Of a stretch of DNA of 64,000 nucleotides, positions 3,264 to 29,615 are shown one piece after another. The stretch is taken from contig JAOAPE010000013.1 of NCBI GenBank assembly GCA_025462725.1, positions 1 through 64,000 of the forward strand, given 5' to 3'. The notes under the pieces were generated by a model, which was not told where the DNA came from, did no database searches, and worked only from the letters and a program-made list of their open reading frames with translations. The translations under genes and the position numbers were made by a program. Position 1 is the first letter of the stretch. Each line of letters begins with the position of its first letter. Source of the DNA: Terriglobales bacterium (lineage in GTDB: Bacteria; Acidobacteriota; Terriglobia; Terriglobales; Acidobacteriaceae).

Positions 3264-4943
3264 ATGTCCTCCTGGCCCATTCCCAGCGCGCTCGATGCTA
3301 GTACGCAACGCTTTCCTACCTTGACTGCGGCTCAGATCGCCCGTGTCCGCCCCATCAGCAGAGTACGCAAAGTTACAGCGGGGGAGATCCTATTTGAACC
3401 TGGTGATACTGATGTCCCGTTTTTCGTCTTGCTCTCGGGACGCATGGAGATCGTGCAGCCGCACCTTTTAGGCGAACGAGAGATAGCGACTCATGAGCCG
3501 GGTAATTTCACCGGAGAGATCACGATGATCTCAGGGCAGCGCTGTCTTGTGCGCGGACGAGTCACTGAAGCAGGAGAGTTTTTGGAAGTGAGCGGTGATG
3601 GACTTCGAACTCTCGTTGCGAGGGACGCCGAACTGAGTGACATCTTCATGCGGGCGTTCATCCTGCGCCGCATTGCGCTGATCTCGAGCGGCGAAGGAAA
3701 CGTGGTTGTCATGGGTTCGATGCACTGCGCCAACACGTTGCGCCTTCGCGAGTTCTTGAACAGAAACTCGCATCCTTTTACCTACATCGATCTCGACACG
3801 GACAAAACGTCGCAAGAATTGCTCGATCGCTTTGACGTCAAAATGTCAGAGGTGCCAGTGGTCATCTGCAATTGGGCGGTGGTATTGCGCAATCCCACCA
3901 CGCAACAGGTAGCAGATTGTCTGGGATTCAACGCCGGCATTGATGGATCGCAGGTGCGCGATCTGATCATAGTGGGGGCTGGGCCATCCGGGCTTGCAGC
4001 CGCTGTTTATGCGGCTTCGGAAGGACTCGATGTATTGCTGATCGAAGTCGATTCTCCAGGCGGACAGGCTGGATCAAGCTCCAAGATTGAAAACTATCTC
4101 GGCTTTCCCACCGGTGTCTCAGGACAAGAGCTGGCGGCGCGCGCTCTGGTGCAAGCGCAGAAGTTCGGCGCGAAAATGATTGTGGGACATAAGGTGGTTG
4201 AATTGAGTTGCAAGACCCGTCCGTATCAGGTGTTGCTCGACAATGGCAACTCGCTCAGTGCGCGGGCGATCGTCATCTCCACCGGTGCGCAATACAACAG
4301 GCCGCCACTACTGAATCTTAGAAACTTTGAAGGCCAAGGTGTCTACTACGGTGCGACGCACATGGAATCCCAGCTTTGCGCCAACGAGGAAATTGTTGTG
4401 GTCGGTGGCGGTAACTCCGCGGGGCAAGCCGCCGTGTTCCTCTCTGACAGTGCCAGGAAAGTGCACATGCTGGTCCGCTCAGGCGGATTGTCAGAGAGCA
4501 TGTCGAGATATTTGATCCGTCGCCTTGAAGAACATCCAAAGATCGACTTGCATTTCAAGACTGAGATCACCGACTTGCATGGGGAAAGGGAATTGCAGGG
4601 CATGGATTGGATAGACCGAACCACGGGCGTAACATCGACACGACAGATACGGCATCTGTTCATGATGGCAGGTGCATCGCCACGGACAGAATGGCTGCAA
4701 GGCTGTGTGGCGATGGACGGCAAGGGGTTCATCCTTACTGGCCGCGACCTGGATTTCTCCGCTGGAGAAACTCCGGCGCTCAACTGGCCGCTGATCCGCT
4801 CTGCGCAGATGCTGGAGACAAGTCTTCCCGGAGTGTTCGCGGTCGGCGACGTCAGGGCAGGCAATGTGAAACGAGTGGCCTCGGCTGTGGGCGAAGGAGC
4901 GATTGCGATTCATCTCGTGCATCGCGCACTGGCAGAGGCGTAG
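3264..4943 (+). CDS. Cyclic-nucleotide-binding domain fused to a thioredoxin-reductase-like flavoprotein
   Basis: The 559-residue protein has three parts. A cNMP-binding (CAP-type effector) domain spans about residues 20-130. A short glutaredoxin-like segment covers about 145-225, with MHC where a CxxC would be expected. A thioredoxin-reductase-like FAD/NAD(P)H module covers 232-559, with GAGPSG at 238-243 for FAD, VVGGGNSAG at 379-387 for the nucleotide and AVGDV near the end. The CATC disulfide of true thioredoxin reductases is replaced by YYGATHM (361-367), so thiol-disulfide exchange by the usual route is unlikely. It is probably a ligand-controlled soluble oxidoreductase. It is convergent with cydAB (10 bp apart). 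The start codon is ATG. Confidence 0.85.
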   Translation: MSSWPIPSALDASTQRFPTLTAAQIARVRPISRVRKVTAGEILFEPGDTDVPFFVLLSGRMEIVQPHLLGEREIATHEPGNFTGEITMISGQRCLVRGRVTEAGEFLEVSGDGLRTLVARDAELSDIFMRAFILRRIALISSGEGNVVVMGSMHCANTLRLREFLNRNSHPFTYIDLDTDKTSQELLDRFDVKMSEVPVVICNWAVVLRNPTTQQVADCLGFNAGIDGSQVRDLIIVGAGPSGLAAAVYAASEGLDVLLIEVDSPGGQAGSSSKIENYLGFPTGVSGQELAARALVQAQKFGAKMIVGHKVVELSCKTRPYQVLLDNGNSLSARAIVISTGAQYNRPPLLNLRNFEGQGVYYGATHMESQLCANEEIVVVGGGNSAGQAAVFLSDSARKVHMLVRSGGLSESMSRYLIRRLEEHPKIDLHFKTEITDLHGERELQGMDWIDRTTGVTSTRQIRHLFMMAGASPRTEWLQGCVAMDGKGFILTGRDLDFSAGETPALNWPLIRSAQMLETSLPGVFAVGDVRAGNVKRVASAVGEGAIAIHLVHRALAEA

Positions 4944-26872: not shown

Positions 26873-26983
26873 GTTGTCTTGTGCTTCTCGCGTTCCCCTT
26901 CTGAGCCTCACGTTTGCTGTCCCGCTGCTTTCTGTCGGTTCCCCTATACTTGACCAAAGTAGCCAAGGGGGATGCCTAAGAAC

Positions 26984-27784
26984 ATGACTCTAGTAGCTGG
27001 GTTCAACTGCCGAGACGGCCTGCTTCTTTGCGCCGACATGGAACAGGTAACGGGCGCATCATCTCGCCGAGTCAGCAAGCTGGCAATGAGATGTACGACC
27101 GGCTCCTGGTGCTATTCAATCACTGGTGCGGGTAGTGGGGCCGTCATTGACAATTGTGTGGACAAGATCTGGGACGCAATGAAAAGTGAGCCAGACTACA
27201 ACGAAGAAAAAATGGAGGATGTTCTCACGGAAGTTCTCACAAAGGCTCACACAAAGTATGTCTGGCCGGACAAGCGGAATGACCACTCCATAAGCCTCAT
27301 TGTTGCTTACACGGACATGCAAAGCTTCAGACAAAAACTTTGGATTACGTACGACTTGGTGCCGATGCCGGAAGTTAAGCACGTCTGCGCTGGGATCGGT
27401 GAGGACCTGGCTAATTATTTGGCCGATCAGCTTTGGCACCCCTTCTATTCAGAGCAGCAAGCTGTACGAATGGCAGCATTCATTTTCAAAGAGGTGAAAG
27501 AACACGTCGGGAATGTTGGCCAAGGGACGGAAATGTGGATGTTACAAAAAGGCGGCAAGACCAAGTTCTATAACCGACATGAAACGGCATTGTTAGAGTC
27601 AGGGTTACCAAGCTTTGAGCGGAACATCTACGACTTTGGTAAAGAAATCATTGGTCCGCTTTTCCCGATCTTGCCCTTCACCCTCAGCGTCCCAAATAAA
27701 GAAATTTGCACCGAAGACAAGAATGTTTTCCAGGGTCCGAAGGGGATTGGAGCCAAAGACTTAGGAAAGCTGACCTTCAAATAG
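26984..27784 (+). CDS. Stand-alone proteasome beta-like Ntn hydrolase
   Basis: Two starts are possible. ATG 26972 abuts the AAGGGGG ribosome binding site (no spacing), whereas ATG 26984 lies 12 nt after it and gives a protein starting Met-Thr. Removing Met exposes Thr1, as in Ntn hydrolases. Counted from Thr1 there are Asp10-Gly11 (DGLLLCAD), Asp17, Lys31 (near the canonical Lys33) and a TGAG segment around position 47, all matching the 20S proteasome beta fold. The 266-residue length is a little above a beta subunit. No alpha subunit, ATPase or Pup gene is near. The cleaved substrate is unknown. The last 24 bp overlap a convergent small gene. Confidence 0.7.
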   Translation: MTLVAGFNCRDGLLLCADMEQVTGASSRRVSKLAMRCTTGSWCYSITGAGSGAVIDNCVDKIWDAMKSEPDYNEEKMEDVLTEVLTKAHTKYVWPDKRNDHSISLIVAYTDMQSFRQKLWITYDLVPMPEVKHVCAGIGEDLANYLADQLWHPFYSEQQAVRMAAFIFKEVKEHVGNVGQGTEMWMLQKGGKTKFYNRHETALLESGLPSFERNIYDFGKEIIGPLFPILPFTLSVPNKEICTEDKNVFQGPKGIGAKDLGKLTFK

Positions 27785-27958
27785 ATGAACGTCGTCTCTC
27801 GTGTACTCGTGATACGCGTAACAGCGTGTGCAGTAGATCGTAAACTTTTTAACGTCAGGTCTGTCCCACTTGCCTATGGGCTGTGACCACACTTCGTGTA
27901 GTGCAATTATGTTGTCGCAATTACTGTTCTTGCAGCGAACGCCAGTAAAAATTGTCAT
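27761..27958 (-). CDS. Small zinc-ribbon-like protein
   Basis: This 65-residue protein has two Cys pairs, CKNSNC and CTRC, spaced 28 residues apart in the manner of a zinc ribbon, with conserved-looking aromatic residues between them (IYCTRCYAYHEY). It overlaps the 3' end of the proteasome-like gene by 24 bp on the opposite strand. No strong ribosome binding site is seen. I recognise no named family. The Cys pattern, rather than size, is the reason for calling it. Confidence 0.5.
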   Translation of the reverse strand: MTIFTGVRCKNSNCDNIIALHEVWSQPIGKWDRPDVKKFTIYCTRCYAYHEYTRDDVHLFEGQLS

Positions 27959-28488
27959 CGAGTAAGTCTTTCAACAGATCAGTGGGTGGGCGGTAACCAT
28001 ATGCTTTAAGGCGTCCAAAAACAAGTGTGGACTTACGGCGATTGAAGCGGAAGGTCAGTTCGTTGAAGTATGCCGACGATTTGCAGGAACTTTTGCAAGT
28101 CCATCGACGCTCAAGTTAGTGTCTAAAAGCATTCGACTAAGTGTTTCAACCTTCGACTTAGCCTTACTTCGCTGGTCAGCAAAAACGCATGGATGTTCAT
28201 TTCGACGTACCTTACCCTGCCTTCGACTCGATGACAACTTTCAGGCCCACTATATCTTATTGATAATTTAGTTTTCAATATGTTGACATTTAGATTTTAT
28301 TCGCATACTCTGTTTCCTGCTCTAAACGGGGGGGAGTCAGGATTCATATCTTGGGATATGAACTAGTTACGAATCAAAGACTTACGCCATATACCCACCC
28401 GTAAGTCGCTGATTCAACTATGATTCATATCGAGGGGGAGGGGGAGGGAGTTATGAAGCAGTAACTCCACGCTTCAAAAACCAGCAGC

Positions 28489-28582
28489 TAACTCCTTTGT
28501 TTTGTAATTTTTACCTATAACTGCTTTGTTTCGTCATATTTGAGCGATACTCGCCAGCTAAACCCTTATTTTTGTCATATTT
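28489..28582. repeat. Three degenerate 24-nt repeats
   Basis: Related units start at about 28489, 28518 and 28559, with shared form TAACTSCTTTGTTTTGTMATWTTT in the first two and a more diverged third copy (TAAACCCTTATTTTTGTCAT...). Spacing is irregular (29 and 41 bp), so this is not a CRISPR array. Confidence 0.45.
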
Positions 28583-28591
28583 GCGATTTGA

Positions 28592-28614
28592 GGGGGAGGG
28601 GGGGTGGGTAGGGG
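28592..28614 (+). promoter_or_regulatory. G-quadruplex motif in the fmt leader
   Basis: Four runs of G (5, 7, 3 and 4 bases) are separated by A, T and TA, which meets the classical G3+N1-7 quadruplex rule on the coding strand. It ends 35 nt upstream of the fmt ATG. Two further polypurine G-tracts occur at 28328-28334 and 28434-28448. A role in fmt transcription or translation is possible but unproven. Confidence 0.5.
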
Positions 28615-28649
28615 CCCAAGGCGAAATATGTTCGCATTGAAAGACGCCA

Positions 28650-29615
28650 ATGGATTTAATCTTCTGCGGAACTCCGCAATTCGCCGTCCCCACTCTCAAC
28701 CGATTGGTTGAAGAAGGATTCCACGTACGATTAGTGGTCACGCAACCGGATCGTCCAAGAGGGCGCGGCATGGAAGTGACACTCTCGCCTGTGAAGCAGG
28801 CATCCCTCGCGCTCGGCTTGCCGATCGTGCAACCGGAGAAGATCAAGAGCAACACAGAATTCCGCGCACAACTGGAAGCGATTGCGCCCCAGGCGGTCAT
28901 AGTTGTCGGCTACGGACGCATCATCCCCGAATGGATGCGCGACCTTCCCAAATTCGGGAACATCAATCTGCATGCGTCGCTGCTTCCGAAGTACCGCGGC
29001 GCCGCCCCGATTCAATGGGCGATTGCAAATGGCGAGACTGTCAGCGGCAATACGACCATTCGTTTGAATGCTGGCCTCGACACGGGAGACATTCTTCTCC
29101 AGGAACAAACGGACATTGCGCCGGACGACACTGCGCTGACACTCGCCCCCCGGCTCGCCGAATCTGGAGCGCAGCTTGTAGTAAGGACGCTTCGAGGATT
29201 AGAGGACGGCAGCATTCAACCTGTTCCGCAAGACGACAGCAACGCCAGCCTCGCGCCCATTCTGCAAAAAGAAGATGGACGGATTGATTTTTCCCGGACT
29301 GCTTCAGAAATAAATAATCGGCTGCGCGGATTTCAGCCGTGGCCTGGCGCGTTCACCACATTTCGCGGGAAGAGCCTGAATGTGATCGCCGCTAAGCCAG
29401 CGAGCCAATCGAAGGCGCTTGCAGCCGGCGAAATCATGTATGAAGAGGAGAAACTCCTTGTCGGTTGCGGCAACAGCACTCTGCTTGAGTTGATTGAAGT
29501 CCAACTCGAAGGCAAAAGACGTATGAGCGCCAGCGATTTCACTAATGGATACAAGCCGCAACCGCAAGAGATGCTGGGCCGGCCGGCGGTCGCTTCATCG
29601 AGTGACTTGAAATAA
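28650..29615 (+). CDS. fmt: Methionyl-tRNA formyltransferase
   Basis: The 321-residue protein has the formyltransferase N-terminal domain with GYGRIIPEWM and the catalytic HASLLPKYRGAAPI motif, then LDTGDILLQ, and a C-terminal OB-like domain (about residues 210-310). It formylates initiator Met-tRNA using 10-formyl-THF. The stop overlaps the rsmB start (TAATG). There is no good ribosome binding site, and a G-quadruplex motif lies just upstream. Confidence 0.97.
   Translation: MDLIFCGTPQFAVPTLNRLVEEGFHVRLVVTQPDRPRGRGMEVTLSPVKQASLALGLPIVQPEKIKSNTEFRAQLEAIAPQAVIVVGYGRIIPEWMRDLPKFGNINLHASLLPKYRGAAPIQWAIANGETVSGNTTIRLNAGLDTGDILLQEQTDIAPDDTALTLAPRLAESGAQLVVRTLRGLEDGSIQPVPQDDSNASLAPILQKEDGRIDFSRTASEINNRLRGFQPWPGAFTTFRGKSLNVIAAKPASQSKALAAGEIMYEEEKLLVGCGNSTLLELIEVQLEGKRRMSASDFTNGYKPQPQEMLGRPAVASSSDLK

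Follow-up and report, generated by a model that had tools for sequence, protein, structure and literature searches.

Among the proteasome-like Ntn hydrolases, Anbu is described as having no propeptide, its threonine being exposed through removal of the methionine (PMC5666114). New proteasome homologues, including WPH, PMI, PHD and others, were reported by Fuchs, Alva and Lupas (2021; PMC8665760); these are diverse prokaryotic proteins with Thr1, Asp17 and Lys33 and without AAA+ partners, which resemble both Anbu and 20S beta subunits. Phage links are given there for PPH and AAH, no suggestive gene context is reported otherwise, and the string "transpos" is absent from the main text (PMC8665760). 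Insertion sequences (IS) with cargo, known as transporter IS (tIS), are an established kind of element (PMC3129680; PMC7986276; PMC9330008), and the features of IS1595 include 8-bp duplications and an N-terminal zinc finger (PMC8101967).

We analysed a proteasome-like Ntn hydrolase gene that lies between def and fmt in a 64-kb window, i.e., the whole stretch of DNA under analysis (Table 1). The original prediction was right as to the enzyme class, the start and the catalytic residues; its picture of a stand-alone gene has given way to another, in which, with a probability of roughly 0.8, an IS1595 transporter IS has decayed and left the gene behind as its cargo, and the gene product, starting at Met-Thr, would act as an N-terminal-threonine peptidase without a dedicated ATPase.

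Table 1. Features of the Ntn hydrolase locus, with positions in the window.
Feature	Position	Strand	Remarks
Left terminal inverted repeat, inner half (TATACTTGACCAAAG)	26945..26959	+	outer 8 bp do not fit
Window Ntn hydrolase gene	26984..27784	+	proteasome-beta/Anbu-like, 266 aa, Met-Thr1; alternative start 26972 (270 aa)
65-aa ORF with Cys pairs	27761..27958	-	tail to tail with the Ntn gene
IS1595 transposase 3'-end remnant	27969..28073	-	frameshifted, split over two frames
Imperfect inverted repeat	28355..28431		32-nt arms, 72%; between the Ntn gene and fmt
Direct repeat	28485..28582		three copies of 28 nt; between the Ntn gene and fmt

Protein family and fold

The window protein is a proteasome-beta-like Ntn hydrolase, as had been predicted, on the combined evidence of Pfam, the predicted fold and the conserved residues. 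The Pfam Proteasome model PF00227 matched its residues 4-184 with 23.4 bits (cut-off 22.4) and also matched 40 of 49 relatives (E up to 1). A search of NCBIfam with the window protein returned 0 families; among the 49 members, low-scoring 20S matches were obtained in 27 (E up to 0.1), the best of them at 1.5e-8 to an archaeal beta model, and no Anbu family model of NCBIfam matched the window protein or any of the 49. The PHROGs "peptidase HslV family" was matched by 12 of these 49 members.

The original prediction had named two observations that would speak against this assignment, namely a predicted structure lacking the alpha-beta-beta-alpha Ntn sandwich and homologues in which Thr1 and Lys31 are not kept. 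In fact, the sandwich is present in the AlphaFold2 model, and Thr1 and the lysine are kept in the homologues. The model, for which the window protein was aligned with six relatives (7 sequences in all), reached a mean pLDDT of 72.3 and a pTM of 0.72, the five models spanning 45.3 to 72.3; segments 94-101 and 226-266 have a pLDDT below 50 and are unreliable. The structure search that had been proposed as a check leads to Anbu and 20S beta subunits: Anbu chains were the first PDB matches in Foldseek (best E 3.8e-12), and alignment of the Foldseek matches with VIA-align gave Z 23.5 to the archaeal 20S beta chain 1j2q_H over 194 residues and 22.5 to Anbu 5nyw. Moreover, searching with a profile of the 49 relatives gave 3.6e-15 for Anbu 5nyj and 6.7e-15 for a 20S beta chain.

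Searching the genome of origin with PF00227 returned hslV and the window gene only; no 20S partner gene was thus found with this model, in line with the earlier statement that the window holds none. With the window protein as query, one paralogue was found in the same genome, at 26% identity.

Start codon and catalytic residues

Read from the second ATG and without its Met, the window protein carries Thr1, Asp10-Gly11, Asp17, Lys31 and Thr46-Gly47-Ala48-Gly49, so that the N-terminal Thr/Ser1, the Asp17 and the Lys33-equivalent are all in place. The conservation of Thr1, Asp17 and Lys31 among homologues, which had been suggested for examination, proved high. Residue 1 is Thr in all 68 related loci (of 77) whose match reaches the N-terminus, and among the 63 aligned sequences that reach 190 aa, the window protein being one of them, Asp17 is retained in 63/63, Lys at window position 31 in 57/63 and Gly11 in 60/63; Asp10 falls below the 75% level used for listing residues.

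As for the start, the codon preceding Thr1 is a start codon in 68/68 loci with an alignable N-terminus (ATG 48, GTG 18, TTG 2), which upholds the choice of the second ATG. The Shine-Dalgarno spacing on which that choice had been based is only a moderate argument in the window: the GGGGG at 26967-26971 ends 12 nt upstream of the ATG at 26984 and abuts the ATG at 26972. A motif resembling Shine-Dalgarno was seen upstream in 58 of 67 loci, a figure obtained by counting seven loose tetramers with no control.

A conserved propeptide was considered and rejected. The frame upstream of Thr1 is free of stops across 25 codons in 46/67 loci and interrupted by a stop in 21/67, and Thr1 is always preceded by a start codon; because that start codon is found in every locus, we prefer initiation there over a propeptide. 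In loci L056-L132, the last 22 residues of the in-frame leader before Thr1 are rich in Pro, Arg and Lys. A second, longer protein form might possibly be made by way of such a leader. Translation would thus begin at Met-Thr, methionine aminopeptidase would remove the Met, as in Anbu, and the exposed Thr1 would act together with Asp17, Lys31 and Gly47 as an N-terminal-threonine peptidase, with no dedicated ATPase involved. We infer catalytic activity, oligomeric state and role.

Window locus

Downstream of the Ntn gene, a transposase is present only as a broken 3'-end remnant. This remnant shows 83% identity (107 bp) to the end of the transposase gene in an intact element of the same genome (L128) and 78% (105 bp) to the corresponding end in congener G001 (L079); tblastn matched it in two frames, with 63% identity over 19 aa in one and 72% over 18 aa in the other (E 2.8e-8). 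The intact element, L128, is 2562 bp long and has repeats, an 8-bp target duplication (TGTCAAGA), a transposase and a related Ntn gene. Upstream, half of an IS1595-type terminal repeat lies 39 bp from the ATG of the Ntn gene; no other site in the 64-kb window reaches its score on either strand, and ~0.002 such matches are expected in 260 nt. The full 23-bp repeat scores only 1.2 at this site versus 25.8-38.1 for the 19 training repeats, no right terminal repeat was found at 27785-28660, and the locus consequently shows no pair of terminal repeats. The ends of the element are not recoverable, and no target duplication can be recognised. Since only the inner half of the left repeat remains, the window locus is best regarded as a decayed remnant and not, as it stands, as a member of IS1595; with the outer left half and the right repeat missing and no target duplication recognisable, we infer the former element from its remnants.

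Comparison with congeners agrees with an insertion. The distance from def to fmt is 1.78 kb in the window versus ~0.54 kb in congener G003, where no Ntn gene lies between them; in G004 another ORF occupies the interval, so that the Ntn gene is absent from def-fmt in both congeners where this interval is fully visible. In G002 a different ORF follows def and the contig stops before fmt, and no def gene could be located in G001. The profile search gave no match in G002, G003 or G004, genomes that are only 71-84% complete. Furthermore, the G+C content of the window Ntn gene is 49% versus 56% for def and fmt, a difference in base composition by which the insertion may be recent. An IS1595-family element with Ntn cargo would accordingly once have inserted between def and fmt and then decayed, its right end and nearly all of its transposase being lost and the peptidase frame still open.

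The same facts admit a less favourable reading for the gene itself, namely that a dead element has left this copy behind as a neutral relic, which has merely not yet acquired a stop codon. The loss of the transposase and right end, and the base composition of a possibly recent arrival, would suit such a relic; on the other hand, no stop interrupts the frame anywhere and Thr1, Asp17, Lys31 and Gly47 are retained, and we hold a neutral relic to be a serious minority possibility.

Between the Ntn gene and the transposase remnant, the window also contains a small ORF with Cys pairs (Table 1). Several intact elements have 0.15-0.85 kb between the Ntn and transposase genes, and a small ORF is found there in a few of them; the 65-aa ORF may therefore be a second cargo gene. 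The inverted and direct repeats on the side of fmt are possibly more mobile-DNA debris.

Distribution and surroundings of the relatives

Of 398 genomes in the taxonomic family, 68 were matched in a profile search. The 80 profile rows consist of the window, 77 other loci and two duplicate rows, and all 77 loci were examined. In a phylum-wide draw of 297 genomes, a five-row profile (A1) matched 6, all in the same taxonomic family, and hslV was present in 56/60 family genomes. One scan of a genome-contig collection yielded 7 loci, all in acidobacterial MAGs (Acidobacteria, Acidobacteriaceae or Terriglobia), and one scan of viral contigs yielded 1 locus (L025). The latter is an Ntn relative at 4001-4654 of a 107.6-kb viral contig, with no adjoining transposase noticed in the 8.6 kb read. 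In tblastn, the window protein had no match at E 0.01 in phage and plasmid collections, and no match was obtained at E 0.001 with L216 (plasmids, phages) or L058 (plasmids).

The neighbourhood survey of homologues that had been recommended found an IS1595 or IS1 transposase on the 3' side (-60 to +900 nt of the Ntn stop) in 41/77 loci and none in 36/77. The two genes are tail to tail in 23 IS1595 and 12 IS1 cases and point in the same direction in 3 IS1595 and 3 IS1 cases. Pfam identified PF12762 and PF12760 in the transposases of L005 and L108, and PF03400 in that of L015. Within 1.5 kb, an IS1595/IS1 transposase occurs in 44/77 Ntn loci; the control, 30 hslV loci of 58 rows with up to 1.5 kb read on each side, gave 0/30.

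Element ends were found as well. In 27 of the 77 relatives (17 + 9 + 1), the Ntn gene lies as cargo within a pair of IS repeats with an exact 8-bp duplication, and the target duplication is present in 17 of the 23 relatives with a tail-to-tail IS1595 transposase. Repeat pairs from the same locus matched in these 8 bp in 28/36 cases versus 5/1182 for pairs from different loci; of these five, four have the palindrome around ACTTCAGT in common and one TCAGGCGA. Intact IS1595 relatives measure ~2.0-2.6 kb and run from a repeat through the Ntn gene and the tail-to-tail transposase gene to the second repeat, enclosed by the 8-bp target duplication. A second repeat type (CGGAAGTATG...) brackets L108, which has an IS1595-type transposase (PF12762), and L107 has repeats of this second type with the duplication and no transposase in place.

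Among the 36 loci without an IS1595/IS1 transposase in place, 9 have less than 900 nt of 3' sequence; L067 and L110 are flanked left and right by IS1-type repeats, without transposase or exact duplication, and others (judged by eye in 20 loci) are solitary or in ordinary or phage-like surroundings.

Some loci deserve separate mention. In L105, one IS1-type element is apparently nested in another, with two repeat pairs and their own 8-bp duplications (4442 and 3230 bp). IS630 was considered as a further carrier at L061 and set aside: the Ntn gene there has an IS1595-type repeat (score 12.6) on its 5' side and, 1.2 kb beyond its stop on the 3' side, a piece of an IS1595 transposase, and therefore the IS630 copy looks inserted into an IS1595 element. 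The IS1595 elements of L064, L102 and L071, from different genomes, are embedded in a palindromic repeat, namely GCACGACTTCAGTCGTGCC or a closely similar sequence. A common chromosomal site was rejected, as their 1.2-kb flanks differ and only the short palindromic repeat is in common, which looks like a preferred target.

These observations weigh heavily against the view that the gene is an ordinary, vertically inherited proteasome homologue, an Anbu- or WPH-like housekeeping protease with incidental transposase neighbours. Some relatives are indeed solitary in ordinary surroundings, and the 2021 survey found no suggestive context for its new families (PMC8665760). Nevertheless, the distribution is patchy in the family and, by the smaller profile, in the phylum, when compared with that of hslV; its relatives are enclosed by element ends and target duplications; and the gene is missing at the same site in congeners. 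Vertical inheritance is therefore very improbable.

Cargo slot and its exchange

Seen from the transposase, the slot is nearly constant in one clade. With the L009 transposase as query, 300 family genomes yielded 34 rows of at least 59% identity, and a proteasome-like gene was found in 30 of the 32 loci examined (all but G375:C148 and G412:C70). Of the remaining two, L221 has no readable cargo, and L220 carries, at 3755-4915 (-), a ClpP-like SDH-type serine proteinase (PF01972, 1.9e-14) in the IS1595 slot and no proteasome-like gene. The first profile clearly matches 18 of the 30 proteasome-like slot genes; the other twelve rest on a second profile, A6, and comprise 11 A6 members and the contig-cut fragment L219 (A6 match 5e-29). 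A6 in turn finds a 20S beta chain (1.1e-13) and aligns with the first profile at an hhalign probability of 98.6, and one A6 member, L218, has a Pfam Proteasome match above cut-off.

Transposases at ~51-58% identity (L174, L175, L227-L229, L231-L233) are accompanied by a different, diverse slot protein with apparent membrane segments, judged by eye, and none of the six of these eight proteins compared with Pfam reached a cut-off. Among the 53-58% rows, G401, G404 and G002 lie outside the census, and the cargo of L230 is not clearly readable.

Within elements, transposase and cargo diverge to very different degrees. The median identity in 16 IS1595 elements is 65% for the transposases versus 19% for the Ntn proteins, and in 12 IS1 elements 75% versus 20%. 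Close pairs make this plainer: the transposases of L064 and L102 (IS1595) are 94% identical and their Ntn proteins 22%, and those of L074 and L092 (IS1) are 92% identical with Ntn proteins at 23%. In pairs with both left ends available, DNA homology covers the left end (31-84 bp) and resumes from the transposase 3' end onward, and none was detected between these points. The opposite case is that of L056 (IS1) and L064 (IS1595), whose Ntn proteins are 57% identical and group as sisters (100/97) in a tree built from 63 sequences.

On this tree, IS1 requires at least 9 changes, 6 of them forced by well-supported branches, and IS1595 requires 17 (10 forced). Label shuffling gave means of 13.7 and 18.9 changes, respectively, so that IS1 is clustered and IS1595 hardly so. 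However, 22/60 inner branches are open, several long branches meet and the deep branches are weak; the nearest sequence of the tree set is 29% identical to the window protein. Because the case rests on the close pairs (94%/22%, 92%/23%, 57%) and not on deep branches, the sequence comparisons argue firmly that Ntn cargo has been exchanged both between transposases and between IS families.

Discussion

In this context, the role of the peptidase has to be weighed. It could be a transposition factor, controlling the jumping of the element through the processing or breakdown of the transposase or of some host protein. This would fit its tail-to-tail pairing with a transposase in 35/77 loci, as well as the clade around the L009 transposase, where all but one of the examined slots hold a protease. 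Nearly identical transposases with very different Ntn proteins speak against it, as do the similar Ntn proteins in an IS1 and an IS1595 element and the unrelated protein that more distant IS1595 elements hold in the slot. Given that nearly identical transposases, and also different IS families, have swapped cargo with one another, it becomes less likely that the peptidase is adapted to a particular transposase, and we regard a transposition factor as unlikely.

The same exchange makes us lean to host- or rival-directed proteolysis. Our tentative preference, at clearly less than even odds, is that the enzyme may cleave host, phage or rival-element proteins instead of serving transposition; what speaks most strongly against this role is the almost constant occurrence of a protease in the slot of one transposase clade. 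A defence function, one option of the original prediction, is left without direct support, as the PADLOC anti-phage defence models matched 0/49 members (E up to 0.01). With similar reserve, it is conceivable that the IS1595 and IS1 elements of this acidobacterial family hold an exchangeable slot for fast-diversifying proteasome-like peptidases, a mobile weapon or counter-weapon where elements, phages and hosts are in conflict, in which catalysis would be kept and specificity swapped between elements.

The main survey of new proteasome homologues had no gene context hinting at a role (PMC8665760), and a large and diverse set now has a clear one. Cargo status on transposons offers a route for the spread of proteasome-like enzymes and adds a protease to the cargo of IS, and the natural units of ~2 kb make the role testable. 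If these enzymes were indeed attack or counter-defence machinery, the known uses of the proteasome fold would be extended by a new one. Cargo-bearing IS were already known; no report of a proteasome-like peptidase as their cargo was found in the literature searched, subscription papers, preprints and ISfinder being outside its scope.

Among known systems, HslV belongs to the same fold family and has one copy in the genome of origin (L003), but differs in its near-universal presence in family genomes and in its freedom from adjoining IS1595/IS1 transposases. Anbu (PDB 5nyj, 5nyg, 5nyw) is the top match in Foldseek and by profile, whereas 20S beta subunits, as close as Anbu by Z, rank first by that measure. 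The predicted start at Met-Thr without propeptide is likewise a trait that Anbu shares with the window protein and its relatives, although identity in structural alignments with the window model is only 11-14%. Anbu is not known to be carried as insertion-sequence cargo. With the homologues of Fuchs, Alva and Lupas (2021), to one of whose clusters it may belong, the IS-borne set has Thr1, Asp17 and Lys in common; its transposon context has no counterpart in the main text of that survey. Finally, the relatives resemble IS1595 tIS in their transposase of DDE_Tnp_IS1595 and zinc ribbon type (PF12762, PF12760), terminal repeats, 8-bp duplications and cargo gene; what sets them apart is the proteasome-like nature of that cargo, the window element itself being dead.
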